Source of the DNA: Aquamicrobium zhengzhouense
GTDB taxonomy: Bacteria > Pseudomonadota > Alphaproteobacteria > Rhizobiales > Rhizobiaceae
DNA length: 64,000 nt
Direction of reading: 5' to 3'
Assembly (NCBI RefSeq): GCF_016124105.1
Contig: NZ_JADGMQ010000002.1
Span: 310,001 to 374,000, forward strand
This document shows, piece after piece, positions 45,718 through 59,941 of this stretch. Made by a program: the position numbers and the translations under genes. Under the pieces are notes generated by a model. It ran no database searches and was not told the DNA's origin. It was given only the letters and a program-made list of their open reading frames with translations. Each line of letters starts with the position of its first letter. Position 1 is the first letter of the stretch.

Positions 45718-47031
45718 ATGGCACTCAGCGACATCGCAATCCGCGCCCTCAAGCCACGCGACAAATCCTACAAGACCGCCGACAAAAATGGCCTCTACAT
45801 GATGGTCTCAACGACCGGGGCAAAGCTCTGGCGCATGGACTATCGCTTCCAAGGGGCGCGCAAGACGCTCGCCCTCGGCAGCTACCCCTCCATCACCTTG
45901 GTCGAGGCCCGACGCCTGTGCGACGACACCAAGACACTTCTGGCGCAGGGCGTCGATCCGGCCCACGAAAAGAAGGTCGAGAAGATGGAGCGCAATCACG
46001 CCTCCACCCTTTTCAAGGACGTGGGTGAGAACTGGTACGCGCTGAACCTGTCTAGCTGGAAGCCGAGCTACGCCGTTCGCCTGCGTGCCCGCCTCGTCGA
46101 TGATGTCTATCCCCAGATCGGGAACCTGCCCATCCGCGCGATCCGGCCCCAAGAGATCGTCCAGTGCGTGCGCAAGATCGAGGAGCGCGGTGCCATCGAA
46201 ATGGCGCGCCGGGTCCACGACATGATCCGCAACATCTGTGCGCTGGCCGTGGCCGAGGGCATCATGGATTTGAACCCGGCCCGCGACACCGCGACCGCGC
46301 TCGCCCCGCCGCCGCCCGTCAAGCACCGCACCGCGATCAAGGCGGTCGAGCTTCCCGAACTCATGGGCAAGCTGACTGAGCGCGCCGAGGGCAATGACGC
46401 GGTGACCATCTGCGCCCTGCAAATGACCGTCCACACCTTCGTCCGCACCAACGAAATCCGCTTTGCCGAATGGCACGAGTTCGAGGACCTTGGTGGCAAG
46501 AAGCCCCTCTGGCGCATCCCGCAGCACCGCATGAAGGTCAAATCCAACAAGACCCAGCCGCGCGGCGATCATCTGGTGCCGCTCACCCCGGCCACGGTCG
46601 CGATCATCGAGCGGGTGCGCAAGATCAACGGCGACAGCAAATACGTCTTCCGCTCGCCCACCACCAAAGCCGATCAGCCCATCTCGGAAAACGCCATGCT
46701 GTTCTACTTGTACCGAATTGGATACAGCGGGCGCGCCACGGTCCATGGCTTCCGCTCGACCGCCTCGACGGTGCTGAACGAGCATGAGTTCAATCCCGAC
46801 TGGATCGAGATGCAGCTTGCCCACATCGACGCTTCGATCCGTGGCGTCTACAACGCCGCTCTCTATCTCAACCAGCGCCGCGAGATGATGCTGTGGTGGT
46901 CGCGGTTTGTTGAGACCGGCGAGACCGACCGGCAGGTGAAGCCTGCGCCCGAGCCTGCGCCCGAGGGTAAATCCAAGGTCAAGGCGCGCATCGTGATTGA
47001 GGTGCATGACGACATCGACGAACTGCTCTGA
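45718..47031 (+). CDS. int: Tyrosine recombinase/integrase, P4 type
   Basis: The 437-residue product is a P4-like integrase that recombines the phage and tRNA attachment sites. It has the N-terminal DUF4102 arm-binding domain (MALSDIAIRALKPRDKSYKTADKNGLYM, KTLALGSYPSITLVEAR), a core-binding domain, and the catalytic domain with RTNEIRF (first Arg), HGFRSTAST (His-x-x-Arg) and the tyrosine in RGVYNAALYL near residue 377, followed by the usual QRREMMLWWSRFV. ATG 45718 follows AGGAG, although 13 bases away; an earlier in-frame start (45631) would read through the box cluster. A terminator follows. Confidence 0.95.
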   Translation: MALSDIAIRALKPRDKSYKTADKNGLYMMVSTTGAKLWRMDYRFQGARKTLALGSYPSITLVEARRLCDDTKTLLAQGVDPAHEKKVEKMERNHASTLFKDVGENWYALNLSSWKPSYAVRLRARLVDDVYPQIGNLPIRAIRPQEIVQCVRKIEERGAIEMARRVHDMIRNICALAVAEGIMDLNPARDTATALAPPPPVKHRTAIKAVELPELMGKLTERAEGNDAVTICALQMTVHTFVRTNEIRFAEWHEFEDLGGKKPLWRIPQHRMKVKSNKTQPRGDHLVPLTPATVAIIERVRKINGDSKYVFRSPTTKADQPISENAMLFYLYRIGYSGRATVHGFRSTASTVLNEHEFNPDWIEMQLAHIDASIRGVYNAALYLNQRREMMLWWSRFVETGETDRQVKPAPEPAPEGKSKVKARIVIEVHDDIDELL

Positions 47032-47892: not shown

Positions 47893-47909
47893 GTCAACCA
47901 ATTATTGAG
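47893..47909. repeat. Phage intergenic site 1 (ATCAAC-N5-GTTGAT type)
   Basis: GTCAAC-N5-ATTGAG, a partial match to the recurring near-palindrome, 37 bases before the alpA start. Confidence 0.5.
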
Positions 47910-47945
47910 TAGAAGGGAGAAAGTTGAAACGGAAACCCCTGACTC

Positions 47946-48125
47946 ATGAACGCACCACGTCTCATCCGTCTCCCAGAACTCACCTCGCACCTCGGCATCG
48001 GTAAGACCAAGCTCTACGCGATGATCAAGACCGGCGATTTCCCCGCACCCGTCAAAATCGGCAAGGTCTCTGCGTGGCGCGCCGACCGGGTGGAGAAGTG
48101 GGTGGAATCACTGCCCAAGTCTTGA
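47946..48125 (+). CDS. AlpA-family HTH regulator
   Basis: The 59-residue product has the AlpA/MerR-like winged helix: RLPELTSHLGIGKTKLYAMI as helix-turn-helix and the wing FPAPVKIGKVSAWRADRVEKW. Proteins of this family bind DNA as small dimers, act as excisionase-type or transcriptional regulators, and often sit near P4-type integrases. Here the gene lies between int and the terminase and is flanked on both sides by copies of the ATCAAC-type site, so it is a candidate binder of them. The start at 47946 is the only good one; GGGAGAAAG lies upstream. Confidence 0.85.
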   Translation: MNAPRLIRLPELTSHLGIGKTKLYAMIKTGDFPAPVKIGKVSAWRADRVEKWVESLPKS

Positions 48126-48132
48126 GTTGCTG

Positions 48133-48149
48133 TTCAACTATCTATTGAA
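48133..48149. repeat. Phage intergenic site 2 (ATCAAC-N5-GTTGAT type)
   Basis: TTCAAC-N5-ATTGAA, itself symmetric at the outer bases, between alpA and the small terminase gene and 38 bases before the latter. Confidence 0.5.
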
Positions 48150-48186
48150 TAGACTATCCGTCAAAGCGCCCTGACGGATACTCACC

Positions 48187-48861
48187 ATGGACGATGATTT
48201 TGACGATCTGCTCGGGACACCCGCGCCCGCGCAAGATGATGATTTCGACGACCTGTTCGATGATGACGAACCCGAGGTCGAATATGCCCGTGGCATCGGG
48301 AGCAAAGGCTTCAACAAGAGTCTGACTGCGGCCCATGTGGATCGAGCGCTCAAAGGTGCGCCACCGATCTGGTTCGCAAAGCTGCTGAATATTGGCCGCA
48401 CCACGGTGCAGCGTAAGCTCGAACACCTGACCCCGCGCGTCGTCGGAAATGGCACCAAGCTCTACGATCCGCGCGAGGCGCTGCCTTTCCTCGTTCAGCC
48501 CCATGACCTGAAAAAGCACATCGCGCAGATGAACCCTCGCGATCTGCCTGAGCGGCTGCGCAAGGAATACTGGACCGCCCGCAAGGTGGAGCAGCAGGTG
48601 CGCCGGGAAAGCGGCGACCTCTGGCACAGCGTTGATGTGGCGAAATCCCATGGCGACATCCTCAAGCTGGTAAAGGACACGGTGATCCTTTGGGCCGACA
48701 CCATTGACGAGTCCGTGGGCCTGACTTCGCCACAGATAGCTCTTCTCGACGACCTTGTGCGCGACCTGCTCACACAGCTTGCTGACAAGGTGGAGCAATA
48801 CGCCAACAACGACATGACCCTCAGCCACGAGGCCGAATATGCCGATGACGAGGACCTGTGA
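48187..48861 (+). CDS. Terminase small subunit, Nu1-like
   Basis: The 224-residue product begins with an acidic run rich in Asp (DDDFDDLLGTP and a second DDDFDDLFDDDE), then a DNA-binding part with APPIWFAKLLNIGRTTVQRKLEHLTP that fits a winged helix, and a long helical C-terminal half. Its place directly before the large terminase, with stop and start overlapping by one base (TGATG), supports the role of phage packaging small subunit, which recognises the packaging site and stimulates the ATPase. Sequence similarity to known Nu1 proteins is distant. Confidence 0.8.
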   Translation: MDDDFDDLLGTPAPAQDDDFDDLFDDDEPEVEYARGIGSKGFNKSLTAAHVDRALKGAPPIWFAKLLNIGRTTVQRKLEHLTPRVVGNGTKLYDPREALPFLVQPHDLKKHIAQMNPRDLPERLRKEYWTARKVEQQVRRESGDLWHSVDVAKSHGDILKLVKDTVILWADTIDESVGLTSPQIALLDDLVRDLLTQLADKVEQYANNDMTLSHEAEYADDEDL

Positions 48862-50984
48862 TGAAAACCCTCGGCGGCATTATCAAATCGACCCTCTCGG
48901 TCGTTCGCCCTTCTGAGAAGCTGACCATTTCCCAATGGGCGGCGAAGCGGCGCTATATCAACGTCCCCGGCGCGCACGTTGGCCTGTGGAGCGCAGACAA
49001 GACCCCATATCTGCCTGAACCCTTGGACACGCTGGGAAGCCTCGACTTCACCGCGATGGTGTTCGTCGGGCCCGCGCGGACGGGTAAGACCGACATGATG
49101 TTCAACTGGATGGGGTACACCGCCGACAACGATCCAGCCGACATGCTGATCTATGGCATGACGCAGAGCCGCGCCGAGGAAATCGGCAAGAGCGAGTGGA
49201 ACAAATTCGTCGCGGCCAAGCGCCCTGACGAAGAGCGCTCGATCATTCAGCGCCTTCTGCGCCCCGGCAAACAGAACGTCCTCGACAAGTATTGGCTCAA
49301 CGGCACCGAGACGATGTTCCGCTGGCCCTCGATCACCGAGCTTTCGGGTAAGACCAAGCCGCGCGTCTGGATCGAGGACTATGACCGTATCCAGCCTGAT
49401 CCTGACGACATCGACAAACAGGGCACCGCGTTCGACCTCGCGCGCAAGCGGACGACCACCTTCAAACGCTTCGCCATGACCGGCATCGAGGCGTCACCCG
49501 GCTTCGAGGTCTCCGACCCAAACTGGATCGCAGCGACACCTCATGAGGCCCCGCCAACCAAAGGCATCCTCGGCATTTACAACCGTGGTGACCGCCGCCG
49601 CTGGTATTGGCGCTGCCCGCACTGCAATGAGGCGTTCATCCCGCAGTTCAAGCTCTTGGCTTGGCCCGATGAGGGCGAGAACCTTGAGCGCTCCGAGCAG
49701 GTCTACATGGTCTGCCCGCAGAATGGCTGCGTCATCACCCCCGATCAGAAGTTCGAGTTGAACAAGAATGGCCGGTGGATCAAGGAAGGTCAGACGTGGA
49801 ACGAGGATGGCTCGATCACCGGCAAGGCGCGGCGCAGCGAGATCGCATCCTTCTGGATGGAAGGACCCGCCGCTGGTTTCCAGACATGGCAGGGCTTGGT
49901 CCTGAACTATCTCGACGCCATGGACGAATACCGGCGCTCGGGCTCTGAGGGTCCGCTCAAAAAGACCATGAACACCGACCAAGGTGTGCCCTACGAAAAG
50001 CCCAAGGACGAGAACGCGCGCCTGCCCGAAGTGCTCAAGGCCCGCGCCGAGGACTGGGGTGCAGGTCATTCCTTCGAGAGCAAAGAGCCGACTGTGCCCG
50101 AGTGGGTGCGCTTCCTCGTTGCGACCGTCGATATTCAGGCGCGCAGTTTCGTGGTGCAGGTCACCGGCTTTGGCGAATATGGCGAGATGACCCTCGTGGA
50201 CATGTTCAAAATCCGCATGTCGAACCGCGTGGATGAGAAGGACGCCCGCCGCCCGCTGCTGCCGATTGACCCTGCCGCGCACGCCGAGGACTGGGACATG
50301 CTCATCCCCGAGGTGATCGAGAAGACCTATCCGCTGGCCGATGGCTCCGGTCGCCGGATGCCGATCAAGATCAGCGGCTCGGACTCTGCCGGTAAGGACG
50401 GCTTCACCACCAACGCGGTCGCCTTCTGGCAACGCCTGCGCGACGATCCCGAGGGGCGCAACTATCACCGCCGCTTCCACCTCCTCAAGGGTGACCACCC
50501 GCGCGACGGGCAATGGCTTCGCTTGCAGTCGTTCTATGACAGCAACACCAATGGCAACATGGCCTTCCTGCGCGGTAAGATTCCCTATCAGCGCCTCAAC
50601 TCGAACGCGCTCAAGGACCGGCTGAACGTCATCCTGATGCGCTCCGATCCGGGCGGCGCGCGCTTCCGCTTCCCCACATGGGCCCCGAACTTCTTCTACA
50701 CCCAGCTTTGCGCTGAGAACCGGGTGTCGGGTAAGGGCTGGGTCGCCCCGAGCGGCAAGCGCAACGAGGCATTTGACCTTAGCTACTACAGCATCGCCCT
50801 TTGCCTCATGCCCGAGATCGCGCTCGACCGCATCAAATGGGATGAGCCGGATCGGGTGCCGGGTTGGGCGAAGCCGTGGGCTGAGAATGATTTCATCATC
50901 CAGCCGGATGGCGAGGTAATCTTCATGCAGAAACCGCCGGTGGATCGTAAGCAACTCGAAGACGCCGCAAGTGAGTGGGTCTAA
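48861..50984 (+). CDS. Terminase large subunit, lambda gpA family
   Basis: The motor and nuclease that packages phage DNA into the prohead and cuts cohesive ends. The 707-residue product has the Walker A motif GPARTGKTD at 70-78, an acidic motif II region in WIEDYDRI, and the gpA-type zinc-finger-like CPHC and CPQNGC pairs in the middle (about 252-292). The C-terminal nuclease part includes VATVDIQARSFVVQV, DSAGKDGFTT and SYYSIALCL. The ATG overlaps the small-subunit stop. gpA-type motors usually package with cos ends. Confidence 0.93.
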   Translation: MKTLGGIIKSTLSVVRPSEKLTISQWAAKRRYINVPGAHVGLWSADKTPYLPEPLDTLGSLDFTAMVFVGPARTGKTDMMFNWMGYTADNDPADMLIYGMTQSRAEEIGKSEWNKFVAAKRPDEERSIIQRLLRPGKQNVLDKYWLNGTETMFRWPSITELSGKTKPRVWIEDYDRIQPDPDDIDKQGTAFDLARKRTTTFKRFAMTGIEASPGFEVSDPNWIAATPHEAPPTKGILGIYNRGDRRRWYWRCPHCNEAFIPQFKLLAWPDEGENLERSEQVYMVCPQNGCVITPDQKFELNKNGRWIKEGQTWNEDGSITGKARRSEIASFWMEGPAAGFQTWQGLVLNYLDAMDEYRRSGSEGPLKKTMNTDQGVPYEKPKDENARLPEVLKARAEDWGAGHSFESKEPTVPEWVRFLVATVDIQARSFVVQVTGFGEYGEMTLVDMFKIRMSNRVDEKDARRPLLPIDPAAHAEDWDMLIPEVIEKTYPLADGSGRRMPIKISGSDSAGKDGFTTNAVAFWQRLRDDPEGRNYHRRFHLLKGDHPRDGQWLRLQSFYDSNTNGNMAFLRGKIPYQRLNSNALKDRLNVILMRSDPGGARFRFPTWAPNFFYTQLCAENRVSGKGWVAPSGKRNEAFDLSYYSIALCLMPEIALDRIKWDEPDRVPGWAKPWAENDFIIQPDGEVIFMQKPPVDRKQLEDAASEWV

Positions 50985-51030
50985 TCAACATTTGGTTGAT
51001 ACTAATACAGCCGATCAACAACTTGTTGCA
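50984..51030. repeat. Phage intergenic sites 3 and 4
   Basis: ATCAAC-N5-GTTGAT (50984-51000), a perfect copy that overlaps the terminase stop codon, and ATCAAC-N5-GTTGCA (51014-51030), 55 bases before the gpW gene. The two are 30 bases apart centre to centre, about three helical turns. Confidence 0.7.
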
Positions 51031-51084
51031 TGGTAAACTAAAACTGGGTTATACGGGCAAGTAACCCATGGAGTTAATGCTCGT

Positions 51085-51300
51085 ATGACCACCTATGTCA
51101 CTCAGGAGATGCTGAACGAGGCGCGCCAAGCCCGTCATCGCCTGCTCACTGGCGGCGGGGTCTATCAGTTCCGTGATCAGAACGGCGAACAGGTCTCCTA
51201 CGCGAAAACCGATCTCCCCAAACTCGACGCCTACATCCGCTGGCTCGAAACCGAACTTGGCGTCGGCATCCCCGTGCCTGTGATGAAGGTGTGGATGTGA
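51085..51300 (+). CDS. Head-tail joining protein, gpW-like
   Basis: A 71-residue product with the gpW pattern: YVTQEMLNEARQARHRLLTGGG, then VSYAKTDLPKLDAYIRWLETELG. In lambda, gpW binds the portal after packaging and prepares the head for the tail. Size and position between terminase and portal are as expected. Its stop overlaps the portal start (TGATG). Confidence 0.9.
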   Translation: MTTYVTQEMLNEARQARHRLLTGGGVYQFRDQNGEQVSYAKTDLPKLDAYIRWLETELGVGIPVPVMKVWM

Positions 51301-52985
51301 TGACGGTCAAGCTCGATAAAGAATCCGAAGAATTGCTCGGCACGCACACTGCCGACAATCCCCCCGTGGTTGATGGTTTCAGGGTGCCTGCGACCACGGG
51401 GCGCGAATTGGCTATCGCCGGTGACGCCTATGAAGGTGCGTCCCGCTTTAGCACGGAGCTTGGCTCCTACCAGCCCGCCACCCGCTCGGCGGATCAGGAC
51501 ATCGCCCCTGCCAAACGTCTGGCGGATGCTCGCTCCCGCGATCTGACGCGCAATGACGCCTATATCCGTGGCGGCGTCACCCTGCGCAAAGACAACATTG
51601 TCGGCTCTTACTTCATGCTGAACGCTCAGCCCAACAGCTTCCAGCTTTTCGGCAAGGAAGATGCAAAGTGGGAAGAGGAGTTTCAGGAAGAGGTCGAGGA
51701 GAAGTTCGCGGCCTATGTCGAGAGCCCGCGCAACTGGCTTGACGCGAGCGGTCACAGCACGCTGACCCAGATGGTCCGCATGGCCATCGAGCAGCACACC
51801 GTTCATGGCGAGGTGCTTGCCTCGGTCGAATGGCTGCGCGCCGGTCGCCGCCCGTTCCACACTGCGATCCAGATGATCGACGTGGACCGCCTGAGCACGC
51901 CGCCCGAGCAGAGCGGCAACCCGAACATCGTGATGGGCGTCGAACTGGGCCCAGTCTGGCATGAGCCGGTGGCCTATCACTTCCGCAAGGCGCATCCGTC
52001 CGACTGGTCCACGCCGAACTCGTTCCAGTGGCGTCGTCAGCCTAAGGAACTGCCGTGGGGTCGTCTTCAGATGATCCACCTTTTCGAGCAGTTCCGACCG
52101 GCCCAGACGCGCGGCATCGGCACGATGATCACGGCCATCCCAGAGATGAAGATGAGCCGCCAGTTCCGCGACGTGGTGCTGCAAAACGCCATCGTCAACG
52201 CGACCTATGCCGCGACCATCGAGTCCGACAGCTTCGACGCCAGCACGATCTTCGCCCAGTTGGGCGGCACCGACTTCCCGCCCGAGAAGGTGATGGAAGC
52301 GATGATGGCGATGTCCAAGGGCTACTACGAGATGGTCGCCTCGACGGTCGGCAAGTCCAAGAACCTGCAAATCGGGGGCGTCAAAATCCCGTGGCTCCCA
52401 CCGGGCTCGAAGCTGAACCTTCAGGGTGCAGGTCAAGGTGGCCCGCTTGGCACCGACTTTGAATCCTCGCTGCACCGCGCAATGGCAACGGCCTTCGGCG
52501 TCTCTTATGAGCAGTGGTCCAAGGATTATTCCAAGACCAACTACTCGTCCTACAAGGGCGCGATGACCGAGACCTACAAAGCGATGGCCTCGATCAAGAA
52601 GGCCGTGGCCGACACATTCGCCTCGTGGGTCTATCGCCTCTGGCTCGAAGAGGCCCTGAACCAAGGTCAGATCACCTCGATCCGCCGCAACATGCCCTCG
52701 TGGTACGAGGGGCAGAACGAGGAATGGTACTCCGATTGCGACTGGGTTGGTGCTTCGCGCGGTCAGGTTGACGAGGTGAAGGAAACCGAAGCTGCGATCC
52801 TGCGCATCGACAATGGCTTGTCTGATCTCAAGACCGAGAACGCCCGCCTTGGCCGCGACTGGCGTAAAGGTCTGCGTCAGATGAAGCGCGAGATGGAGTG
52901 GAAAGAGTTCTACGGCGTCATGCAGGAAGAGAAGATGAAGGAAGCCGCTTCCACGACCGCCGCCAAAAAGGATGCCAAGAAATGA
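51300..52985 (+). CDS. Portal protein, lambda gpB family
   Basis: The dodecameric portal at one head vertex through which DNA enters. The 561-residue product has the family pattern (PF05136): TRNDAYIRGGVTLRKDNIVGS near the start, IDVDRLSTPPEQSGN with GVELGPVWHEPVAYHF in the middle, and a C-terminal third ending in a Lys/Ala-rich tail. SYEQWSKDYSKTNYSSYKGAM is typical. The ATG at 51300 gives one-base overlap with gpW; a GTG at 51291 is also in frame. Its own stop overlaps the protease start. Confidence 0.94.
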   Translation: MTVKLDKESEELLGTHTADNPPVVDGFRVPATTGRELAIAGDAYEGASRFSTELGSYQPATRSADQDIAPAKRLADARSRDLTRNDAYIRGGVTLRKDNIVGSYFMLNAQPNSFQLFGKEDAKWEEEFQEEVEEKFAAYVESPRNWLDASGHSTLTQMVRMAIEQHTVHGEVLASVEWLRAGRRPFHTAIQMIDVDRLSTPPEQSGNPNIVMGVELGPVWHEPVAYHFRKAHPSDWSTPNSFQWRRQPKELPWGRLQMIHLFEQFRPAQTRGIGTMITAIPEMKMSRQFRDVVLQNAIVNATYAATIESDSFDASTIFAQLGGTDFPPEKVMEAMMAMSKGYYEMVASTVGKSKNLQIGGVKIPWLPPGSKLNLQGAGQGGPLGTDFESSLHRAMATAFGVSYEQWSKDYSKTNYSSYKGAMTETYKAMASIKKAVADTFASWVYRLWLEEALNQGQITSIRRNMPSWYEGQNEEWYSDCDWVGASRGQVDEVKETEAAILRIDNGLSDLKTENARLGRDWRKGLRQMKREMEWKEFYGVMQEEKMKEAASTTAAKKDAKK

Positions 52986-54292
52986 ACAACCCATTCCTCG
53001 CCACCTTCGAGAACCAGCCAGCGATGATCAGTCTCGGGACCGAGGCTCGGTTTAAGGCATTCCTCGACAAGGCCGTCTCGACGCTGGACACCATTGAGGC
53101 CAACACCTCGCCGGTGACGATGCAGGACGAGTTCTGGCCGACCGCCGATAGCTGGATGTCAGCCTACCGCCCGTATGTGGTGAAGAGCGGCATCCTGATG
53201 ATCCCCGTCAAAGGCGTGCTGCTGAACGACTTCGGCTACGCGCTCGGGAACTGGGCGACAGGCTATACCTACATCGCCAAGGCGTTCGACCGAGGACTTG
53301 CTGACCCCGAGGTGAAGGGTATTGCGTTCGTCATCGACTCGGGCGGCGGTGCTGTCGCTGGCAACTTCGATCTGGTGGACCGCATCTACGGTGCGCGCGG
53401 CCAGAAACCGACCCGCGCATTTGCTTCTGAGCACGCCTATTCGGCTGCTTATTCAATTGCAAGTGCCGCAGACAACATTGTAGTGTCCAGAACTGGTGGG
53501 GTTGGTTCCATCGGTGTGGTCACCTCCCACTTTGACATGTCAAAGCGCGTTGAGGCTGAGGGCTACAAGGTCACCTTCATCCACTTCGGAAAGCACAAGG
53601 TTGACGGCAACTCGTATGAGGCGCTGCCCCCCGAAGTGAAGGAACGCATCCAAGGGCGCATCGACACCCTTGGGCAAGTCTTCGTGTCCACCGTGGCACG
53701 GAACCGAGGCATGAAAGAGAAGGCCGTTCGGGACACCGAGGCTCTTACCTTCACTGCCGACGAAGCCCTGTCCAATGGCTTGGCCGACTCCATCGGCTCG
53801 CTTGAGGACGCAATCGTAGCGTTCGCTACTGACCTGTCCAAAACGGAGGACGACAACATGTTTACTCAGGAACAGTTGGACGCTGCTGTTGCAACGGCAA
53901 CCGCATCGGCCAAGGAAGAAGGTAAGAATGAAGGTATGAACGCAGGTGTCGCTCAAGAGCGTGCTCGCGTCTCGGCCATCGTGACCTCGGAAGCGGGTGC
54001 TGCCCGTCCGAAGGCTGCAATGAAAATGGCGCTGAACGAAAAGTTCGCCGCTCTGGACGCTGACGCCATCGTCGAACTTCTGGCTGAACTGCCGGAAGAA
54101 AAGGCCGAAGCTCCTGCCCCCGCTGCCGCCGAAGTCCCCAAAGGCAAAGATGGTGCTGCGGCTGACTTCAAGACCGCCATGGACAAAGCCGAGCATCCGC
54201 AAGCAGGCGCTCCCGGCGAGAAGCAACCCGACAAGTCGAGTGCCCGTGCCGCCGCCGCTCTCGGTGCCATCGGCGTGAACTACAAGCAATAA
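52982..54292 (+). CDS. Prohead protease, S49 (ClpP/SppA) type, with scaffold tail
   Basis: The 436-residue product has an S49 peptidase domain (about 60-290): DSGGG at 119-123, Ser154 in AYSAAY as nucleophile and Lys206 in GKHKVDGN as base. From residue 293 the tail is rich in Ala, Glu and Lys and looks like a scaffold; a separate internal start produces it alone (53858). This is the layout of lambda gpC with Nu3. The protease matures the head after assembly. The ATG overlaps the portal stop by four bases. Confidence 0.93.
   Translation: MNNPFLATFENQPAMISLGTEARFKAFLDKAVSTLDTIEANTSPVTMQDEFWPTADSWMSAYRPYVVKSGILMIPVKGVLLNDFGYALGNWATGYTYIAKAFDRGLADPEVKGIAFVIDSGGGAVAGNFDLVDRIYGARGQKPTRAFASEHAYSAAYSIASAADNIVVSRTGGVGSIGVVTSHFDMSKRVEAEGYKVTFIHFGKHKVDGNSYEALPPEVKERIQGRIDTLGQVFVSTVARNRGMKEKAVRDTEALTFTADEALSNGLADSIGSLEDAIVAFATDLSKTEDDNMFTQEQLDAAVATATASAKEEGKNEGMNAGVAQERARVSAIVTSEAGAARPKAAMKMALNEKFAALDADAIVELLAELPEEKAEAPAPAAAEVPKGKDGAAADFKTAMDKAEHPQAGAPGEKQPDKSSARAAAALGAIGVNYKQ
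53858..54292 (+). CDS. Internal scaffolding protein, Nu3-like
   Basis: An in-frame ATG at residue 293 of the protease gene is preceded by GGAGGA at 53845-53850, seven bases away, a far better site than is expected by chance. It would produce a 144-residue protein (MFTQEQLDAAVATATASAKE at its start) made of charged helix and an Ala/Pro/Lys tail, as expected for a scaffold that guides capsid assembly and is then removed. The case rests on the ribosome site and on the lambda precedent. Confidence 0.75.
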   Translation: MFTQEQLDAAVATATASAKEEGKNEGMNAGVAQERARVSAIVTSEAGAARPKAAMKMALNEKFAALDADAIVELLAELPEEKAEAPAPAAAEVPKGKDGAAADFKTAMDKAEHPQAGAPGEKQPDKSSARAAAALGAIGVNYKQ

Positions 54293-54317
54293 CCAACCGG
54301 CCTGAAGGAGAAGCCAA

Positions 54318-54764
54318 ATGGCTATCAACACCCCCTACCTCGCCCATCTGGCCGGTTTTCCGGGCCAGTGGTCTGACGAGATCAACCCCGTTCGCGAGGG
54401 CCTGATCCTGAACAACCCCGATGTCGTCACGGTGGACATGACCATCGCGGCCTCGCAGACCATCGCGGAATACACCCCGGTCGGCCTCAACGCCGCTGGC
54501 GATCTGGTTCCGGCTGTCTGGGCCGCTGATGAGACCGCAGTGAAACCTGTTGGCATCACGCTGTTCCCGATCACCACTCCGGCAGGGACGCCGCTGAAAG
54601 GCGTGCCGATCCTGATCCAAGGTGGTCTGAACGTGGACATGATCAAATGGCCTGTATCGTTCGACACCTTTGAGAAGAAGCTCGAAGCGTTCCGTGGCGC
54701 TCCGACGCCGACCAATATCGTGGTCAAGAAAGCGTACCTCGGCGCAACCGTGGCCCAACCGTAA
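54318..54764 (+). CDS. Head decoration protein, gpD-like
   Basis: The 148-residue product fits the lambda gpD family: a mostly beta protein with DVVTVDMTIAASQTIAEYTPVGL, AVKPVGITLF and VPILIQGGLNVDMIKWP. Trimers bind outside the expanded head and stabilise it against internal DNA pressure. GGAGAAG precedes the ATG, and the gene sits between protease and capsid genes as in lambda. Confidence 0.88.
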   Translation: MAINTPYLAHLAGFPGQWSDEINPVREGLILNNPDVVTVDMTIAASQTIAEYTPVGLNAAGDLVPAVWAADETAVKPVGITLFPITTPAGTPLKGVPILIQGGLNVDMIKWPVSFDTFEKKLEAFRGAPTPTNIVVKKAYLGATVAQP

Positions 54765-54800
54765 GCCGCTCGACGGCCCGATTTTTACAGGAGATACCAA

Positions 54801-55898
54801 ATGGCTATCGAGCTTTGGACCCCCAATGATCTCTACGCGCTGCGGCGCGATGATCGCATGGACGATGTTCCGTCCTACTGGCTGGACGAGCATTTCAATG
54901 CCGACCACTATGCTGAGGACGGCGAAGTCCGCTTCGGTGATCTGGAAGAATCGACCCGCTTCCTCGCACCGTTCGTCCTGCCCTATGAGCAGGGCAAGGC
55001 CATGCAGCACATGGAGCCCGAGAGCGTCGAGGCGTTCCGCGTGCCGTACATCAAGCTGAAGAACGCTGTTCGCCCGGAAGATGCCAAGAACATCAAGCCG
55101 AGCGACATCTTCCGCAACGGTGGTCAGCCGCCGAGCCTCGAAACGCGCTTCGACGCCCGCGTTGCTGAACTGGATCGTCGCCATCGCCGCGCGATCCGTA
55201 TGCGTGAAGCATGGATGGCCGCTCGTGCGATCATCGACGGTAAAGTCCAGATCGACTTCGAGCGCGATCAGGGCGCAGCCAGCCCGTCCGTTCTGCTGGA
55301 CTTCGGGCGCGATGCTTCGCTGAACGTGGTCAAGACCGCAGACTTCTGGAACGACCCCGACACCCCGATCCTCGACGATCTGGAATCGTGGCTGAACCGC
55401 ATGTACCTGATCCACGGTGGCGGCTCGGGCTCCCGCCTGACTGTCGGCGCTCAGGTGGCCGGTGTGTTCCGCAAGAACAAGCAGGTCCTCGACATGCTGG
55501 ACACCAAATACTACGGCGCGCCGGAAGGCGTCTCGATCAACCGTGGTATCAACCGCATCTCGCAGCCGCGCACCTACATCGGTCGTCTGGAATCGGGCCT
55601 TGAAGTCTGGTCCTACAAGGACACCATCGACGTTCCGACCGTTGGTGGCGGCAAGCAGCGCGTCGATCTCTTCAACGAGAAAGACATTCTGCTCGAAGCT
55701 CCCGGCGCAACCGGCGTCCGCGTCCGTGGCCCGATCTTCGACACCAAGGCCATCGAGTCTGGTCAGGTCGCGGCTGAGGTCTTTGCAAAGATGTGGGAGA
55801 CCGAGGACCCCGGCGAGAAGTGGCTGATGCACCAAGCATCGTTCCTGCCGGTGCCGCTCTACCCGAACCGCACCCTCAAGGCGCGCGTTCTCGCTTGA
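54801..55898 (+). CDS. Major capsid protein, gpE-like
   Basis: The 365-residue product has the gpE family pattern (PF03864): WTPNDLYALRRDDRMDDVPSYWLDEHF at the start, LAPFVLPYEQGKAM, a central KADFW-like segment, and a C-terminus ending FLPVPLYPNRTLKARVLA. It forms the HK97-fold shell. AGGAGAT lies before the ATG. A terminator-like hairpin follows the stop codon. Confidence 0.93.
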   Translation: MAIELWTPNDLYALRRDDRMDDVPSYWLDEHFNADHYAEDGEVRFGDLEESTRFLAPFVLPYEQGKAMQHMEPESVEAFRVPYIKLKNAVRPEDAKNIKPSDIFRNGGQPPSLETRFDARVAELDRRHRRAIRMREAWMAARAIIDGKVQIDFERDQGAASPSVLLDFGRDASLNVVKTADFWNDPDTPILDDLESWLNRMYLIHGGGSGSRLTVGAQVAGVFRKNKQVLDMLDTKYYGAPEGVSINRGINRISQPRTYIGRLESGLEVWSYKDTIDVPTVGGGKQRVDLFNEKDILLEAPGATGVRVRGPIFDTKAIESGQVAAEVFAKMWETEDPGEKWLMHQASFLPVPLYPNRTLKARVLA

Positions 55899-55904
55899 TG
55901 AACC

Positions 55905-55942
55905 GATTGGCCCACTGTTATGGTGGGCCAATCAACCTTTTG
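55905..55942 (+). terminator. Terminator after the capsid gene
   Basis: GATTGGCCCAC (55905-55915) and GTGGGCCAATC (55923-55933) form an 11-bp stem with a 7-base loop and are followed by AACCTTTTG. The right arm overlaps an ATCAAC-type site. Confidence 0.75.
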
Positions 55943-55977
55943 TAGATCAGGCATGGAAGGATCACCCCAATGTTGAT
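55931..55977. repeat. Phage intergenic sites 5 and 6
   Basis: ATCAAC-N5-GTAGAT (55931-55947) and ATCACC-N5-GTTGAT (55961-55977), each 11 of 12 to the consensus. The centres are 30 bases apart, as for sites 3 and 4. Site 6 covers the start codon of the next gene (ATG at 55970). Confidence 0.7.
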
Positions 55978-56272
55978 CAAAGCACTCACCTCCATCGAAG
56001 GTTCGCGCAAGTCGCAGAACCCCGTCATCAACCCGAACTCCGTGTTCGAGGCCGATGACAAGACCGCCAAGCGTCTGCTCGATATGGGCGCTGCTCGTGA
56101 GGCCACCAAAGAGGACATCGCTCTGGCGAAGGTCCATGGCCTGATGATCGAGACCGCCGACAAGCCCGCGCCCGACACTGGCAAGGCTGACACCAAACCC
56201 GCCGCCGCAAAGGGCGCTGACAAGCCCAAAACCGATGCGAAGCCGGACGCCAAGTCCGACGATCCGCTCTGA
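55970..56272 (+). CDS. Small head protein with repeat-type N-domain
   Basis: The 100-residue product has an N-terminal domain (about 1-58, with SVFEADDKTAKRLLDMGAAREATKED) and a Lys/Asp/Pro/Ala-rich tail that should be unstructured. The domain resembles small phage proteins found between capsid and tail genes. It is related to the product of the next gene, so the pair arose by duplication. A role in head completion, like lambda gpFI, is inferred from position only. Confidence 0.7.
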   Translation: MLIKALTSIEGSRKSQNPVINPNSVFEADDKTAKRLLDMGAAREATKEDIALAKVHGLMIETADKPAPDTGKADTKPAAAKGADKPKTDAKPDAKSDDPL

Positions 56273-56288
56273 TCCATAGGAGATCGTA

Positions 56289-56576
56289 ATGGCTAAGATG
56301 TACGCCCTTCACCAGATCATCCTCGAAGATGACAAGGTGGTTCCCCGTCACACCGTCTTTGACGCCACGCCTGCACAGGCCAAGCAGTTCGATGCGCTGA
56401 AAGCCGCACGTCCTGCGACCGCTGAAGAAGTTGCTGAGGCCAAGGAAGCTGCCGCGAAAGCGGATGGCAGTGCCTTTGCTGAAGGCCCGTCGCCCAATGA
56501 TCCGTCGCCTGCTGACAACCTGAAGCCCGCCTCGGGCGCGCCGGGTGATCCGCAGTCGCCGCCGAAGGGTAAGTAA
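56289..56576 (+). CDS. Small head protein, paralogue of the preceding one
   Basis: The 95-residue product has TVFDATPAQAKQFDALKAARPATAEE, which aligns with the same region of the preceding protein, and a Pro/Ala/Gly-rich tail (GPSPNDPSPADNLKPASG). GGAGATCGT precedes the ATG. The two may form a heteromer or act at successive steps of head completion; both points are inference. Confidence 0.7.
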   Translation: MAKMYALHQIILEDDKVVPRHTVFDATPAQAKQFDALKAARPATAEEVAEAKEAAAKADGSAFAEGPSPNDPSPADNLKPASGAPGDPQSPPKGK

Positions 56577-56577
56577 G

Positions 56578-56976
56578 ATGAGCATCCGCGACATCCGCAG
56601 GACCGCGCGCAGGCAACTGCACGACGCCTTCAAGGTCGCGGTGCTCTATATCCCGCGTGTGGGTAGCCCTGCGCTTCTCCATGCGCGGGATCACACCAAA
56701 TTCCGCGTGAACGCAATCGAGGGCGCTGTGCGATCCGGCAACGGCCAAATGGTCGGTCGTCAGGAGATGGAGCCTTCCATTATCTTCATGCGCGATGAGC
56801 TTGCCGCCAATGGCGTGACGCTCATCCGTGGTGGCGTGATCTCCATCGAACGGGGAGAAGCCTATACGCTCGACAACGCAGAAGCTCCCGACGACATCAC
56901 CGTCAAATGGTTCGTCACGGCCATCAGCAATGAGCGGGAGTTGGCTGAACTACCTGTGCCCGAGGACCTGTCATGA
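56578..56976 (+). CDS. Head-tail joining protein, gpFII-like
   Basis: The 132-residue product is a mixed beta protein with QLHDAFKVAVLYIPRVGSPALLHARDH near the start and TVKWFVTAISNERELAEL at the end. Its place between the small head proteins and the tail genes corresponds to lambda gpFII, which joins head and tail, but the identity is by position and size. The start at 56578 is one base after the previous stop; the stop overlaps the next start by four bases. Confidence 0.7.
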   Translation: MSIRDIRRTARRQLHDAFKVAVLYIPRVGSPALLHARDHTKFRVNAIEGAVRSGNGQMVGRQEMEPSIIFMRDELAANGVTLIRGGVISIERGEAYTLDNAEAPDDITVKWFVTAISNERELAELPVPEDLS

Positions 56977-57623
56977 GAGACACGTTCGCACTGGTGATTG
57001 AAGGGTTGACCCACATCAAGTCTCTTGAGGACCTGCCGCAGGACATTATCCGCGCGGCGCGCATCGCCGTAAACGATGCTGCAACCCGTGGCCGCACGGC
57101 CATGGCTAAGGAGGTTCTGCATCAAGTCAATCTGCCGAGGGATTATGTCTCCCCCAGCGGCAAGCGCCTGCACGTCTCTGATAAGGCCACCAACAAAAAC
57201 CTCGAAGCAGTGGTTTCGGCCCGCGTTCGTCCCACATCGCTGGCACGCTTTGCTCAAGGCGGCGCGACCCGTGGACAGCGTAACGTGCGCGTTGAGGTGA
57301 AACATGGCGCTGTTCGGCAGGTTCCGGGTGAGAAGCGGATGGATCAAGGCTACAGCGCCTTCCTGATCAAACTGCGCGCGGGTTCCGCCGACCTCGACAC
57401 CAAGAACAACCTTGGTCTGGCGCTCCGAGTCCCATCCGGCAAAAAGCCGAGCCGTGCTTACCAACCAAAAGCCCTCGGCAAAAACCTGTTCCTTTTGTAC
57501 GGGCCCTCGGTCGCACAGCTTCTTTTGCCCGTGCGCAATTCCAGAGGCGGCGTGGCCGAGCAACTGACCCCCGACATTCAGCAGATGCTGTCGGATGAGT
57601 TCTGGCGGCAGATGGAGCTTTGA
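56973..57623 (+). CDS. Minor tail protein, gpZ-like
   Basis: The 216-residue product has an N-terminal helical half (LEDLPQDIIRAARIAVNDAATRGRTAMAKEVLHQVNLP) and a beta-rich second half. PRDYVSPSGKRLHVSDKAT and the final DIQQMLSDEFWRQMEL agree with phage gpZ (PF06763). It acts when the tail is completed and prepared for joining. Close packing with both neighbours supports a single late operon. Confidence 0.82.
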   Translation: MRDTFALVIEGLTHIKSLEDLPQDIIRAARIAVNDAATRGRTAMAKEVLHQVNLPRDYVSPSGKRLHVSDKATNKNLEAVVSARVRPTSLARFAQGGATRGQRNVRVEVKHGAVRQVPGEKRMDQGYSAFLIKLRAGSADLDTKNNLGLALRVPSGKKPSRAYQPKALGKNLFLLYGPSVAQLLLPVRNSRGGVAEQLTPDIQQMLSDEFWRQMEL

Positions 57624-57624
57624 G

Positions 57625-58170
57625 ATGCCAATCACCAACATCCCACCCCGCCTGAAAATCCTGCTGGCGCTCACCGATGTGCTGAAGGAGATCAACCCGG
57701 CCAATGGCTATGAGTTTGATCTGACTGATGATGAACACGCCCGCCCGCGCGTGGTCCGTGGTCGCCTCGTGATTGGTGATGACGAGCCTCTGCCCATGGT
57801 GAGCATCCTTGAGCAACCCATGGCCGATGAGCCCATCCGCACCGAGCATCAGCGCGACAACACGATCAACGCTGGTAAGTGGTCCCTCATCGTTCAGGGT
57901 TGGGCTGAGGGTGACAAGCATAACCCCAGCGACATCGCATACCAGCTTGAAGCTGAGGTGCGTAAACGCTTCGCGCTCGAAAAGAAACGCCCTTCGGCGC
58001 GCCCCGGTCGCGGCGAGACCCGTAACTACTTCGGTCTCGGCGGGCTGATCTACAACTTCACAATCGGTCAACCTGTGGTTCGACCTGCGGAAGGTATCTC
58101 GCCTCACGGGACCTTCTATTTCAATCTGACGCTAGAAATAGCGGAGGACATGGCAACTGACTTAGGTTAA
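57625..58170 (+). CDS. Tail terminator-like protein, gpU position
   Basis: The 181-residue product has an alpha/beta pattern (PPRLKILLALTDVLKEINPANGYEFDL, SILEQPMADEPIRTEH, KWSLIVQGWAEGD) seen in phage tail-completion proteins of the gpU type. These form a hexameric ring that stops tail-tube growth. Identification rests on position between gpZ and the tail tube and on this pattern. Start ATG 57625 lies two bases after the previous stop. Confidence 0.72.
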   Translation: MPITNIPPRLKILLALTDVLKEINPANGYEFDLTDDEHARPRVVRGRLVIGDDEPLPMVSILEQPMADEPIRTEHQRDNTINAGKWSLIVQGWAEGDKHNPSDIAYQLEAEVRKRFALEKKRPSARPGRGETRNYFGLGGLIYNFTIGQPVVRPAEGISPHGTFYFNLTLEIAEDMATDLG

Positions 58171-58177
58171 GTTGCCG

Positions 58178-58202
58178 ATCAACTACTTGGTGATCAATCA
58201 AC
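58178..58202. repeat. Phage intergenic site 7 and a half-site
   Basis: ATCAAC-N5-GGTGAT (58178-58194, 11 of 12) and a single ATCAAC at 58197-58202, 24 and 16 bases before the tail tube gene. Confidence 0.65.
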
Positions 58203-58217
58203 TACGGAGTGGACCAA

Positions 58218-59030
58218 ATGGCCTTCGAGAACAACTATACCCTTGGTCGCGGCGAGGTCTACTTCGCCCGTCGCGATCCGATTACCGGACTGCTGGGCGG
58301 TGAGCGCTACATCGGCAACACCCCCGAGTTCAACCTGACCGCCGAAGAAGAGAAGCTGGAACACTTCTCCTCGGATCGCGGTATCCGGGTGAAAGACGCG
58401 ACGGTGACCCTTCAGGTGAACTACACCGGCACCATCTCGTGCGACAACATCGACGCCGAGAACATCGCGCTGTTCTTCCTTGGTGAGAACCAGCAACTGA
58501 CCGTGGCTCAGGCCACCGTCACGGACGAACAGGTCGGCGTGACCGGCGTGGGCGTCGAGAAGGGCATGTTCTATCAGCTTGGTGCATCGCCTGCGAACCC
58601 CTCGGGCGCGCGCGGCGTGATCTTCCCCGGCACGGCAGGCACGGCCTTCTCGCTGAAGAAGGGCTCGGTCGAACTGGTCTCGGGCGTGGACTTCGTGGTC
58701 AATGCTCAACTTGGTCGGATCGAAATCCTCGACACCTCGACCACCGTTGAGGATGGCGACATCCTGACCGCGACCTACACCGTGGCGGCTTCGACCCGCG
58801 AGCGTGTGATCTCGGGCTCGACCGCCATCGAGGGTGAACTGCGCTACATCTCGTACAACCCGAAAGGCGAGCAGCGCGACTTCTTCATGGCCGCAGCAAC
58901 GCTGTCCCCGAACGGCGACTTCCCGCTCAAAGCCGACGAGTGGCAGGTCATCCCGTTCAACGTGGAAGTGACCAAGAAGAACGACCAGACCCCTGCGATC
59001 ATCGCAGACGGTCGCCCGTTCACCGCCTGA
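58218..59030 (+). CDS. Major tail tube protein
   Basis: The 270-residue product is beta-rich: YTLGRGEVYFARRDPITGLLGGERYIGNTPEFNLTAEEE at the start and GSTAIEGELRYISYNPKGEQRDFFMAAATLSPNGDFPLKADEWQVIPFNVEV at the end, the usual signature of siphophage tail tubes (gpV type). It polymerises in hexameric rings on the tape measure. An inserted region in the middle may be a separate surface domain. The start ATG 58218 is preferred to an upstream GTG at 58209. Confidence 0.9.
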   Translation: MAFENNYTLGRGEVYFARRDPITGLLGGERYIGNTPEFNLTAEEEKLEHFSSDRGIRVKDATVTLQVNYTGTISCDNIDAENIALFFLGENQQLTVAQATVTDEQVGVTGVGVEKGMFYQLGASPANPSGARGVIFPGTAGTAFSLKKGSVELVSGVDFVVNAQLGRIEILDTSTTVEDGDILTATYTVAASTRERVISGSTAIEGELRYISYNPKGEQRDFFMAAATLSPNGDFPLKADEWQVIPFNVEVTKKNDQTPAIIADGRPFTA

Positions 59031-59046
59031 TCAACAAACAGTGGAG
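59030..59046. repeat. Phage intergenic site 8
   Basis: ATCAAC-N5-GTGGAG (10 of 12) at the stop codon of the tail tube gene, overlapping the left arm of the terminator that follows. Confidence 0.55.
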
Positions 59047-59068
59047 CGGGCAAGTCTCGCTCCACTTA
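59041..59068 (+). terminator. Hairpin after the tail tube gene
   Basis: GTGGAGCG (59041-59048) and CGCTCCAC (59058-59065) form a stem followed by TTATC. Partial termination here would lower expression of the chaperones and tape measure relative to the tube. Confidence 0.65.
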
Positions 59069-59099
59069 TCCCTGACACCCTGACTTCGGAGAAACCCCT

Positions 59100-59549
59100 G
59101 TGGCACTTAAATACACCGTGAAAACCAAGGACGTGAAAGACGGCGATGAAGTCGTTGGCTCCGTCCACGGCCTGTCCTTCAATGCCATCGTTGGCCTGAT
59201 CAATCTCAACCGCGAAGTGGTCGAGACGCTGTTCAACAAGTTCAGCGGGCGCGAGGCTGAATCCATCACCGACACCGAGATCAGCGCAGTCGGCATGGAA
59301 ATGCTGGAAACCGCACCGCTCTTCGTGGCGCAGGTAATCGCTGAAGCGACCGATGCCTTCGACGGTTACGACCCGAAAGACGAGAACGCGGTCAATCCGC
59401 TCGACACCATCATGTCGATGCCGCTCGGCCTGCAACTCGCCTTCCTGCAAGAGATCATGCCGCTGACCTTCAATGCCGGGGGCGGCGTAAAAAAAATGCT
59501 CGCTCTGGCCCTCAAGGCGAGTCAGGGCGCAAGCCAGAGCGGAAACTAA
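59100..59549 (+). CDS. Tail assembly chaperone, gpG-like
   Basis: The 149-residue product is helical (SFNAIVGLINLNREVVETLFNKF, EMLETAPLFVAQVIAEATDAFDG) and belongs to the position of lambda gpG. It binds the tape measure protein during tail assembly. The start is a GTG at 59100 behind CGGAGAAACC. An A8 run near its end (59489-59496) allows -1 slippage into the frame that continues to 59893, giving a fusion of about 264 residues. Confidence 0.88.
   Translation: MALKYTVKTKDVKDGDEVVGSVHGLSFNAIVGLINLNREVVETLFNKFSGREAESITDTEISAVGMEMLETAPLFVAQVIAEATDAFDGYDPKDENAVNPLDTIMSMPLGLQLAFLQEIMPLTFNAGGGVKKMLALALKASQGASQSGN
59489..59496 (+). promoter_or_regulatory. Slippery A-run for -1 frameshift
   Basis: Eight A in a row read in frame as GT-A AAA AAA ATG, which contains the heptamer A-AAA-AAA. 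After a -1 slip, reading continues NARSGPQGESG and stays open to 59893. Confidence 0.85.
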
Positions 59550-59893
59550 CCCTCGACGACTGGCTATGGAACATCCGGGGGCAAGTGAGTGAACTCGTTT
59601 CGGAGGGACACAATGAAGCCCCGGATTATCCAATCGCTTTCGTATGGGAGGAAGTTCAGATCGTTGCTGACCGGAAGAATAGAATACTGGCGAGCGAAGC
59701 AACGATCCTTCAGCGTGCAATCAACACCGGGGTTGCTTTGGCGGTCGCCAAGGACGGCGGTAAGAAAGCGAGTGCTGACTTCCGAAAATTGGTGAAGTCA
59801 CTGCTTGGTGACGACATAGTAAGTGAAGAGGCGCTGCCACCAACCCCGGCTCAGGAGCGCCTGAGAAAGCGGAGAGAGCGGCGAAATACTTGA
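59495..59893 (+). CDS. gpT-like extension of the tail chaperone (-1 frame)
   Basis: This frame has no need of its own start: after the -1 slip it reads on without a stop for 132 residues, through RKLTLDDWLWNIRGQVSELV, AFVWEEVQIVADRKNRILAS and ADFRKLVKSLLGDD to a basic end. The DDWLWNIRGQ block resembles DxxxW motifs of other phage G-T proteins. In lambda the G-T fusion is made at a few per cent of G and is needed for tail assembly. The second frame's own ATG or GTG would give only a truncated product. Confidence 0.85.
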   Translation, partial: NARSGPQGESGRKPERKLTLDDWLWNIRGQVSELVSEGHNEAPDYPIAFVWEEVQIVADRKNRILASEATILQRAINTGVALAVAKDGGKKASADFRKLVKSLLGDDIVSEEALPPTPAQERLRKRRERRNT

Positions 59894-59924
59894 TGTAGCC
59901 ATCGGCCACTGCTGTGTTATACCG

Positions 59925-59941
59925 AACAACAAATGGTGGAG
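59925..59941. repeat. Phage intergenic site 9
   Basis: AACAAC-N5-GTGGAG (9 of 12), resembling site 8 closely (CAACAAA and TGGAGC shared), 22 bases before the tape measure start. Confidence 0.45.

Follow-up and report, generated by a model that had tools for sequence, protein, structure and literature searches.

Why does one short near-palindrome recur in almost every gap of the late operon of a prophage, and which protein reads it? The question is raised by 64,000 nucleotides of the Aquamicrobium zhengzhouense contig NZ_JADGMQ010000002.1 (C12; positions 310,001 to 374,000), the whole analysed stretch being called the window below. The window cuts a prophage of about 70 kb of the Casjensviridae type that continues far past the window end; coordinates above 64000 are window coordinates counted on past that end (C12 position minus 310000). 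An earlier note had listed nine copies of ATCAAC-N5-GTTGAT, likened them to stoperators, and named AlpA or a repressor outside the window as the regulator acting on them. The nine-site observation is confirmed and proves to be part of a larger set. We propose, as the probable explanation of the sequence patterns described here, that a single lysogeny repressor uses these sites as operators throughout the prophage, and that they form a palindromic operator/stoperator network in which about 26 gap sites would very probably let this one protein keep the prophage silent.

A scan of the window found all nine copies at the positions listed earlier; the sites, being near-palindromic, are given no strand:

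47893..47909, no strand, site upstream of alpA, one mismatch in the core
48133..48149, no strand, site in the alpA/terS gap, one mismatch in the core
50984..51000, no strand, perfect 17-base site beginning on the final base of the terL stop codon
51014..51030, no strand, second site in the gap between terL and the head-tail adaptor gene, with a 4-of-6 -10-like hexamer 18 bases downstream
55931..55947, no strand, site 3' of the capsid gene that touches a terminator-like hairpin (55905-55933)
55961..55977, no strand, site covering the start codon of the next gene (55970)
58178..58194, no strand, site in the gap between the tail terminator and major tail genes, 24 bases 5' of the start codon
59030..59046, no strand, site beginning on the final base of the stop codon of the major tail gene
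59925..59941, no strand, weak site 5' of the tape measure gene, two mismatches in the core

Against the 12 fixed bases of ATCAAC-N5-GTTGAT, the copy at 50984 has no mismatch, those at 55931, 55961 and 58178 have one each, 51014 and 59030 have two each, and 47893, 48133 and 59925 have three each; against the 10-base core TCAAC-N5-GTTGA, eight of the nine have at most one mismatch and 59925 has two. The weak copies alone prove little, since the whole window holds 49 matches at up to three mismatches where 18.5 are expected. Several of the occupied gaps are also occupied in relatives: the terL gap (50984) in Rhizobium phage RHph_X2_30 and Marinobacter phage PS6, the gap after the capsid gene (55931) in RHph_X2_30, and the gap between the tail terminator and major tail genes (58178) in RHph_X2_30 and Klebsiella phage N133. 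RHph_X2_30 has in addition a perfect core (39243) upstream of its tape measure gene.

Two regularities that had been read from the nine copies fared differently with distance. The rule that short gaps lack the motif holds inside the window's late operon, where all six gaps of at least 47 bases are occupied (one by the weak 59925) and the gaps of 16, 25 and 36 bases are empty. Taken in full, the late operon has 11 gaps of at least 47 bases: seven contain a core with at most one mismatch, one contains the weak 59925 and three (189, 55 and 177 bases) are empty. The rule fails outside the late operon, because perfect cores lie in a 27-base gap (86080) and at an overlapping junction (112427). The common 30-base spacing is correct for the pairs 50984/51014 and 55931/55961, but other pairs stand 41 and 51 bases apart in this prophage and 58 in RHph_X2_30; a constant 30-base pairing is therefore not conserved, and 30 is no rule.

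The motif is concentrated in the prophage. The 4.07-Mb genome contains three perfect 17-mers, all within this element on C12, and 19 perfect cores, 17 of them in the prophage and two elsewhere; the 35 listed copies with at most one mismatch divide into 19 within the prophage (70 kb) and 16 over the rest of the genome (4.0 Mb). At most one mismatch being allowed, the prophage has 33 cores against 2.0 expected, enriched over shuffles, and 26 of these are in gaps, which account for about 15% of its length (gap counts are approximate, the genes having been called with a simple script). The host flanks (45.4 and 44 kb) are at chance level, with 1 and 0 such cores against 1.2 and 0.8 expected. Chance as an origin of the pattern is rejected on account of the clustering in the genome, the shuffle comparison and the palindrome excess found de novo below. 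The suggestion that the regulator acts at many points of the late operon stands in so far as dispersed sites lie there, but the sites are not confined to it: the early and replication regions, which lie past the window end, hold 15 of the 17 perfect cores. Of 24 sites in tandem gaps of the prophage, 15 are no more than 20 bases from the upstream stop codon. Two sites lie directly 5' of a CI-like repressor gene (114856 and 114897, the latter perfect) and one in the divergent gap beside a Cro-like gene. The sites thus resemble stoperators in being many dispersed copies of one sequence placed mostly in gaps.

The same motif, again mostly in gaps, is found in several related phages and prophages, as the earlier note had suggested looking for. 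When perfect palindromes with a gap were sought de novo (five copies or more, motif not supplied), TCAAC-N5-GTTGA ranked top in the prophage (17 copies against 0.21 expected), in RHph_X2_30 (8 against 0.12), in Achromobacter phage AchV4 (9 against 0.08) and in N133 (5 against 0.06); it was not the top palindrome in seven other Casjensviridae. This search covered 49,999 bases of RHph_X2_30 and of a Loktanella phage; 50,000 bases each were scanned of AchV4, N133, Pseudomonas phage SS2019XI, PS6, Ruegeria phage V18, Rhodobacter phages RcCWillis and RcWhiteOak, AH2, Soft, Chi and BcepNazgul. Cores with at most one mismatch number 32 in RHph_X2_30, 22 in AchV4, 15 in N133, 14 in SS2019XI and 16 in PS6, where 1.0-2.7 are expected in each. 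Four phages without a match to the repressor have 3 (pCB2051-A), 1 (Soft), 2 (Chi) and 7 (BcepNazgul) against 1.3-2.4 expected, with one gap copy in pCB2051-A and none in Soft, Chi or BcepNazgul. Among bacterial genomes with a repressor homologue, one (G146) has a Chi-like prophage that contains eight of that genome's nine perfect cores and in which 23 of 26 sites lie outside gene calls, and another of the same genus as ours (G004) has 8 of its 11 perfect cores within 31 kb left of the homologue; both contain long uncalled stretches (gap shares 0.32 and 0.31), and 'in gaps' is overstated there. In a third (G034), two one-mismatch sites 60 bases apart stand 5' of the homologue. A site with no more than one mismatch occupies the gap before the repressor gene in four of five relatives (RHph_X2_30, AchV4, N133 and PS6), as it does in our prophage; in SS2019XI the site there has two mismatches.

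A separate observation concerns a perfect core within the exonuclease gene (108507-108523). It is present at the same codons, with 0 or 1 mismatch, in RHph_X2_30, AchV4, N133 and G146, and absent from those codons in V18, RcCWillis, the Loktanella phage, Chi, G004, SS2019XI and PS6, although G004, SS2019XI and PS6 have sites elsewhere. The core is shared in part because the amino acids are conserved.

The identity of the reader can be approached by comparing the three candidate regulators of the prophage:

47946..48125, plus strand, AlpA-family excisionase/regulator (Pfam Phage_AlpA), weakly conserved
106364-106675, minus strand, Cro-like (YdaS-type) helix-turn-helix (HTH) gene
114928-115689 (C12:424928-425689), CI-like repressor gene outside the window, at the other end of the prophage

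The second of the two candidates named earlier, a repressor outside the window, is favoured by this comparison: the reader is likely to be the CI-like protein and not AlpA, and the idea of one regulator with many dispersed, stoperator-like sites is supported. The repressor is 51% identical to its RHph_X2_30 counterpart, with the recognition region VSAEAVRKWFSGESRP against VSPEAVRKWFAGEARP, nearly unchanged, whereas the Cro-like protein and AlpA are 35% and 28% identical to theirs and have both diverged more. The closest repressors among the phage-collection matches listed are those of RHph_X2_30, AchV4 and N133 (51, 43 and 42% identity), all of which carry the motif. The protein, of 253 residues, has an N-terminal HTH domain of the lambda-repressor type (PHROG phrog_2967, 5e-21; HTH_3 at 22.9 bits against a cut-off of 23), and its family profile matches CI chains in the PDB weakly (E 0.008-0.03), the best match being a putative DNA-binding protein (1e-4); Pfam detected no LexA-like peptidase domain in it at E 0.1 or better. 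A query with the single repressor found no relatives, whereas an alignment query succeeded. A class-wide sample of genomes searched for homologues yielded only the prophage's own genome (1 of 385 at E 1e-10), and 7 genomes among those of the 150 nearest relatives, our own included, have one.

An AlpA that reads the sites is very improbable. Its gene is flanked by the copies at 47893 and 48133, which had made it a candidate in the earlier note; these are among the weakest copies, with three mismatches in 12, the opposite half of the prophage holds most of the perfect cores, and the protein differs in its recognition helix from the RHph_X2_30 counterpart while the motif is common to both. The same discrepancy applies to the Cro-like protein, whose helix differs between the prophage and RHph_X2_30. 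That it reads the sites, alone or with the repressor, is improbable too, for all that a site occupies the divergent gap beside its gene and that CI and Cro of lambda share operators: a counterpart 30% identical over 76 residues is present in the Loktanella phage, which lacks the motif, and in Chi, also without the motif, the annotation notes a 'transcriptional regulator' beside the primase. As sole readers, both AlpA and the Cro-like protein are thus disfavoured by helices that have changed while the motif was kept.

The link between the sites and the CI-like repressor, whose binding to them is deduced from sequence, consists of co-occurrence and of a half-site difference that accompanies the recognition helix. 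The alignment query gathered 80 viral loci (the best 80 of 134) and 11 genome loci with repressor relatives, which gave 73 clusters at 85% identity; one locus per cluster was kept from the 91, and the site counts use the 64 loci that span 10 kb or more. Thirty-four of these clusters combine Ser at helix position 2 with RKWF; they hold 194 sites against 17.2 expected, and in 31 of them a site with no more than one mismatch falls near the frame start of the repressor, between 400 bases upstream of the open frame and 90 bases inside it. The remaining 30 clusters have 68 sites against 13.2 expected, and 6 of them have such a site near the frame start. The helix groupings, including this one, were chosen after the data had been seen. 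The de novo search in eight loci with VSHEAVRKWF returned TCAAC-N5-GTTGA (22 against 0.19 expected), whereas in eight loci with VSQEAVRKW the top palindrome was ACAAC-N5-GTTGT (8 against 0.13), with TCAAC-N5-GTTGA at 3 against 0.12. Counted at all gap sites with a perfect CAAC-N5-GTTG, and with six named elements added, the outer base of the half-site is A 57 times and T 36 times in the 23 loci with Gln at the first residue of the recognition helix, and A 6 times and T 215 times in the 56 loci without Gln; a per-locus test kept 12 and 20 of these, the others having too few sites. The repressor of phage 434, with a glutamine at the same place, also reads A as the outer base. On the repressor tree (states for 50 of 78 rows; G146, included in the outer-base counts, is not in it), however, Gln arose once, so that the small p-values for the outer base do not reflect independent events and describe one coordinated difference; as an independent replication of the link between helix and half-site, the comparison failed.

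For the mechanism it is proposed that the repressor, presumably as a dimer, would bind palindromes across the prophage. Some sites would overlap a sigma-70 promoter, with the right half-site TTGA(C) as its -35 box, and binding there would block initiation; the sites 5' of the repressor gene would provide autoregulation. At sites within 30 bases of a start codon, and maybe at other late-operon sites, the bound repressor would most likely act as a stoperator-like roadblock to polymerase. The late operon lies downstream of a tRNA-Met gene and the integrase gene on the same strand, for which reason its silencing against read-through from these would be useful. The positions of the sites are consistent with two uses. 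Four of the nine window sites (55931, 55961, 58178 and 59925) are within 30 bases of a start codon, too near to form the -35 box of the gene concerned. Among 100 gap sites in six phages, 86 stand between genes in tandem; 44 of these are at most 20 bases from the preceding stop codon, and 35 lie less than 30 bases from the next start codon, which likewise excludes these 35 as its -35 box. Where the distance to a start codon is 32 bases or more (67 site-directions, 26 spacings), -10-like hexamers with at least four of six matches are most frequent 17 bases (8 of 67) and 18 bases (5) from the right TTGA, followed by 16 and 23 bases (4 each), and the looser form NANNNT peaks at 17 and 18 (14 and 11, with at most 8 elsewhere); all spacings were scanned because a first mirror control was possibly confounded by base composition. 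We read from this two uses of the site in the family, as a -35-box operator and at places other than the promoter of the next gene, for which a roadblock is the simplest role, as has been proposed for the stoperators of phage L5 (PMC9283540). Candidate promoter sites of the prophage are those at 99531, 100278, 101409, 103197 and 106733, which belong to the early region or, next to the Cro-like gene, to the divergent gap; among the late-operon sites, of which those 32 or more bases from a start codon were scanned, none qualified. The three early gaps at 99531, 100278 and 101409 share a longer block composed of the site, TAGCTAGGGACA, a -10-like hexamer and AGAATCACA, and look like duplicated promoter cassettes before separate genes.

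The same repressor could also work by plain repression of many promoters, with every functional site a promoter operator, no block to elongation, and the near-start sites repressing promoters that escaped the scan or acting just downstream of one. The -10 peak at 17-18 bases does suggest that some sites are promoter operators, TTGAC points along transcription even near start codons (8 of 35 sites against 1 of 35 for the mirror), the late-operon site at 51014 has its hexamer at 18 bases (a 4-of-6 match lacking the last T), and the master repressor MrpR of the Bacillus prophage SPbeta has its peaks in promoter regions, as far as the available text describes them (PMC10516654). We nevertheless regard this as somewhat unlikely, given the 35 of 86 sites that crowd a start codon, the equality of -10-like matches with the mirror in that class (2 of 35 each), and the fact that no late-operon site far enough from a start codon qualified as a candidate promoter. 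Quite another origin of the palindromes would be hairpins in the transcript, terminators or processing sites, as befits inverted repeats that often follow stop codons, one of them touching a terminator-like hairpin; that the letters themselves are conserved, that copies occupy divergent gaps too, and that phages lacking the repressor lack gap copies makes this highly unlikely. Equally hard to credit are partition or packaging sites of the phage genome, a function that dispersed palindromes of such kind do serve in some phages (partition), since 37 of 64 loci have a site close to where the repressor gene begins and a -10 peak accompanies the sites. Both are accordingly disfavoured by conserved letters, divergent gaps, linkage to the repressor and the -10 peak.

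Several results weigh against a repressor network made up of promoter operators and roadblocks. Seven of the 33 prophage cores are inside coding sequence, and BcepNazgul, with no repressor, has its seven copies against 1.4 expected, above its 40 shuffles, all in coding sequence. Ruegeria phage V18 and Rhodobacter phages RcCWillis and RcWhiteOak bear the repressor without a clear motif: these carriers and AH2, another carrier of a homologue, have 5, 4, 4 and 1 cores with at most one mismatch against 0.8-1.5 expected, and a de novo motif search of the Ruegeria and Rhodobacter phages found none. In the genomes with weaker homologues (G034, G066 and G118), the perfect cores, 2, 9 and 1 per genome, are not beside the homologue. 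Conservation of individual gaps was not significant in any pairwise test (p 0.08-0.40); of 55 shared junctions in five comparisons, 12 are occupied in both elements, 11 in ours only, 2 in theirs only and 30 in neither. The helix rule is loose, for clusters outside the Ser/RKWF group still show a 4- to 6-fold excess of sites and G146, with Thr at helix position 2, has sites as well; and the Gln change, being single, could have been accompanied by another co-inherited regulator that the A difference follows. The TTGAC bias in the near class, set beside an unclear one in the far class (12 against 8 of 51), fits poorly with a clean division into two classes; over all tandem-gap sites the preference for transcription is slight (20 of 86 against 9 of 86 for the mirror). 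Known stoperators act in one orientation, in the available account (PMC9283540), while the palindrome is free of orientation. Finally, AchV4 has both repressor and sites, yet the available text on it reports no stable lysogens in the laboratory (PMC7996906), whereas the present element is a temperate member of the family seen as an integrated prophage.

The membership of the prophage in that family follows from its TerL, nearest in the phage collection to that of RHph_X2_30 (Casjensviridae, 49%), and from its gene order. From the left, tRNA-Met is followed by the integrase, a small protein, AlpA, the terminase subunits TerS and TerL, and the head and tail genes; next come an early region, most of it encoded on the opposite strand, replication genes, a helicase and the CI-like regulator. 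Read across the prophage ends, the order helicase-repressor-integrase-AlpA-TerS is that of RHph_X2_30, whereas the helicase is directly beside TerS in Chi, Soft and BcepNazgul; with a Chi-like TerL and gene order and a lysogeny module between helicase and terS, the element belongs to the temperate branch of the Casjensviridae. At its left end lie two genes:

45433..45508, plus strand, tRNA-Met gene (ARAGORN), the probable attachment site and left end of the prophage
45718..47031, plus strand, tyrosine integrase (Pfam Phage_integrase and Arm-DNA-bind_3; PHROG integrase), 33% identical to that of RHph_X2_30

The last ten bases of the tRNA-Met gene, GGGCCCACCA, are repeated just right of the repressor gene. 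An empty attachment site was sought in genomes of the same genus, where the right flank had no match beside the tRNA genes; because the repeat is only 10 bases long and no empty site was found, both ends are tentative. Right of the probable end, at C12:425872-427288 (115872-117288), lie a tyrosine integrase in two separate frames, of which Pfam detects the domain only in the shorter, and an HTH_17-like gene, together probably the remnant of a neighbouring island.

Two further features of the proteins were observed. The protein at 93147-93380 resembles an acyl carrier protein in its sequence, and one is annotated in RHph_X2_30 too. Acidic C-terminal tails ending -DL, -DLL or -ELL occur in 11 of 89 called prophage proteins, namely TerS, the integrase and nine early or replication proteins:

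80415-81056, early or replication protein with acidic tail
81244-81525, early or replication protein with acidic tail
81522-81737, early or replication protein with acidic tail
81734-81964, early or replication protein with acidic tail
91736-92089, early or replication protein with acidic tail
106816-107325, early or replication protein with acidic tail
108747-109415, early or replication protein with acidic tail
109717-110304, early or replication protein with acidic tail
112446-112748, early or replication protein with acidic tail

Such tails end 8 of 58 proteins in SS2019XI (as -DDL or -EDL), 2 of 62 in AchV4 and 1 of 54 in PS6, and none in RHph_X2_30, N133 or G146. They may be a shared binding tag resembling the acidic tail of the single-stranded DNA-binding protein, itself such a tag.

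Returning to the repressor and its sites, a wider proposal may be offered tentatively, as one we hold less probable than not: that temperate Casjensviridae possess an old, orientation-free stoperator network, in which a dimeric CI-type repressor would silence a prophage of 60-70 kb at 20-30 palindromes, part of them promoter operators and part roadblocks, possibly as one repressed nucleoprotein domain, and that the virulent Chi, Soft and BcepNazgul are without repressor and gap sites, having either lost the two jointly or never possessed them. The repressor gene had already been noted in AchV4, with the integrase (PMC7996906), and in AH2 (PMC3483164). In the available text, the words operator, palindrome and inverted repeat are absent from the AchV4 paper and, as word starts, from the AH2 paper, and no description of these sites was among the matches listed from the literature searches. 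The motif offers a sequence test for temperate members of a family whose type member, Chi, is lytic.

Among known systems, the CI proteins of lambda and 434 are alike in having an HTH repressor, a near-palindrome of about 17 bases and close half-site letters, with Gln and an outer A as in 434; lambda has few operators, at two promoters, where dozens of sites are found here. The conserved 17-base inverted repeats of phiC31 and the c1 operators of P1 are likewise dispersed repressor sites, for which our literature search found no paper. In SPbeta, too, one master repressor is described with dispersed sites in the prophage, the SPBRE elements, which had been found in silico long before the protein MrpR; MrpR has a tyrosine-recombinase fold and ten peaks in promoter regions (PMC10516654), whereas the repressor here is a CI-like HTH protein and many of the sites stand so close to a start codon that they cannot be the promoter of that gene. 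The 22-base repeat of T1 and Stevie is alike in being dispersed, mostly intergenic and likened to stoperators, and unlike in being asymmetric and in belonging to lytic phages, its role being given as unknown in the text available (PMC4319613).

The closest comparison is with the stoperators of the cluster A phages (L5, Bxb1 and TipsytheTRex), a different phage family with different hosts. These are described as more than 20 copies genome-wide, at promoters and in short intergenic gaps, with a conserved site 5' of the repressor gene and a proposed stop of both initiation and elongation (PMC9283540, PMC6550527); many copies of one site over the genome and a site before the repressor gene are found in both systems. 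The cluster A sites are asymmetric, 13 bases long and for the most part oriented the same way, and the protein that binds them is a monomer with two DNA-binding domains (PMC9283540, PMC6550527), whereas the prophage site is a palindrome with a slight outer-base preference, for which a dimer is expected and no built-in orientation. Stoperators are known best from mycobacteriophages, in which they are oriented and asymmetric; a palindromic counterpart in Sinorhizobium, Achromobacter and Klebsiella phages would raise the question of whether an ordinary dimer of the CI type can halt polymerase at dozens of positions regardless of orientation. Judged from its sequence, the prophage system would thus work like the cluster A stoperators, but is not a member of that kind as defined by asymmetric, oriented and monomer-bound sites.

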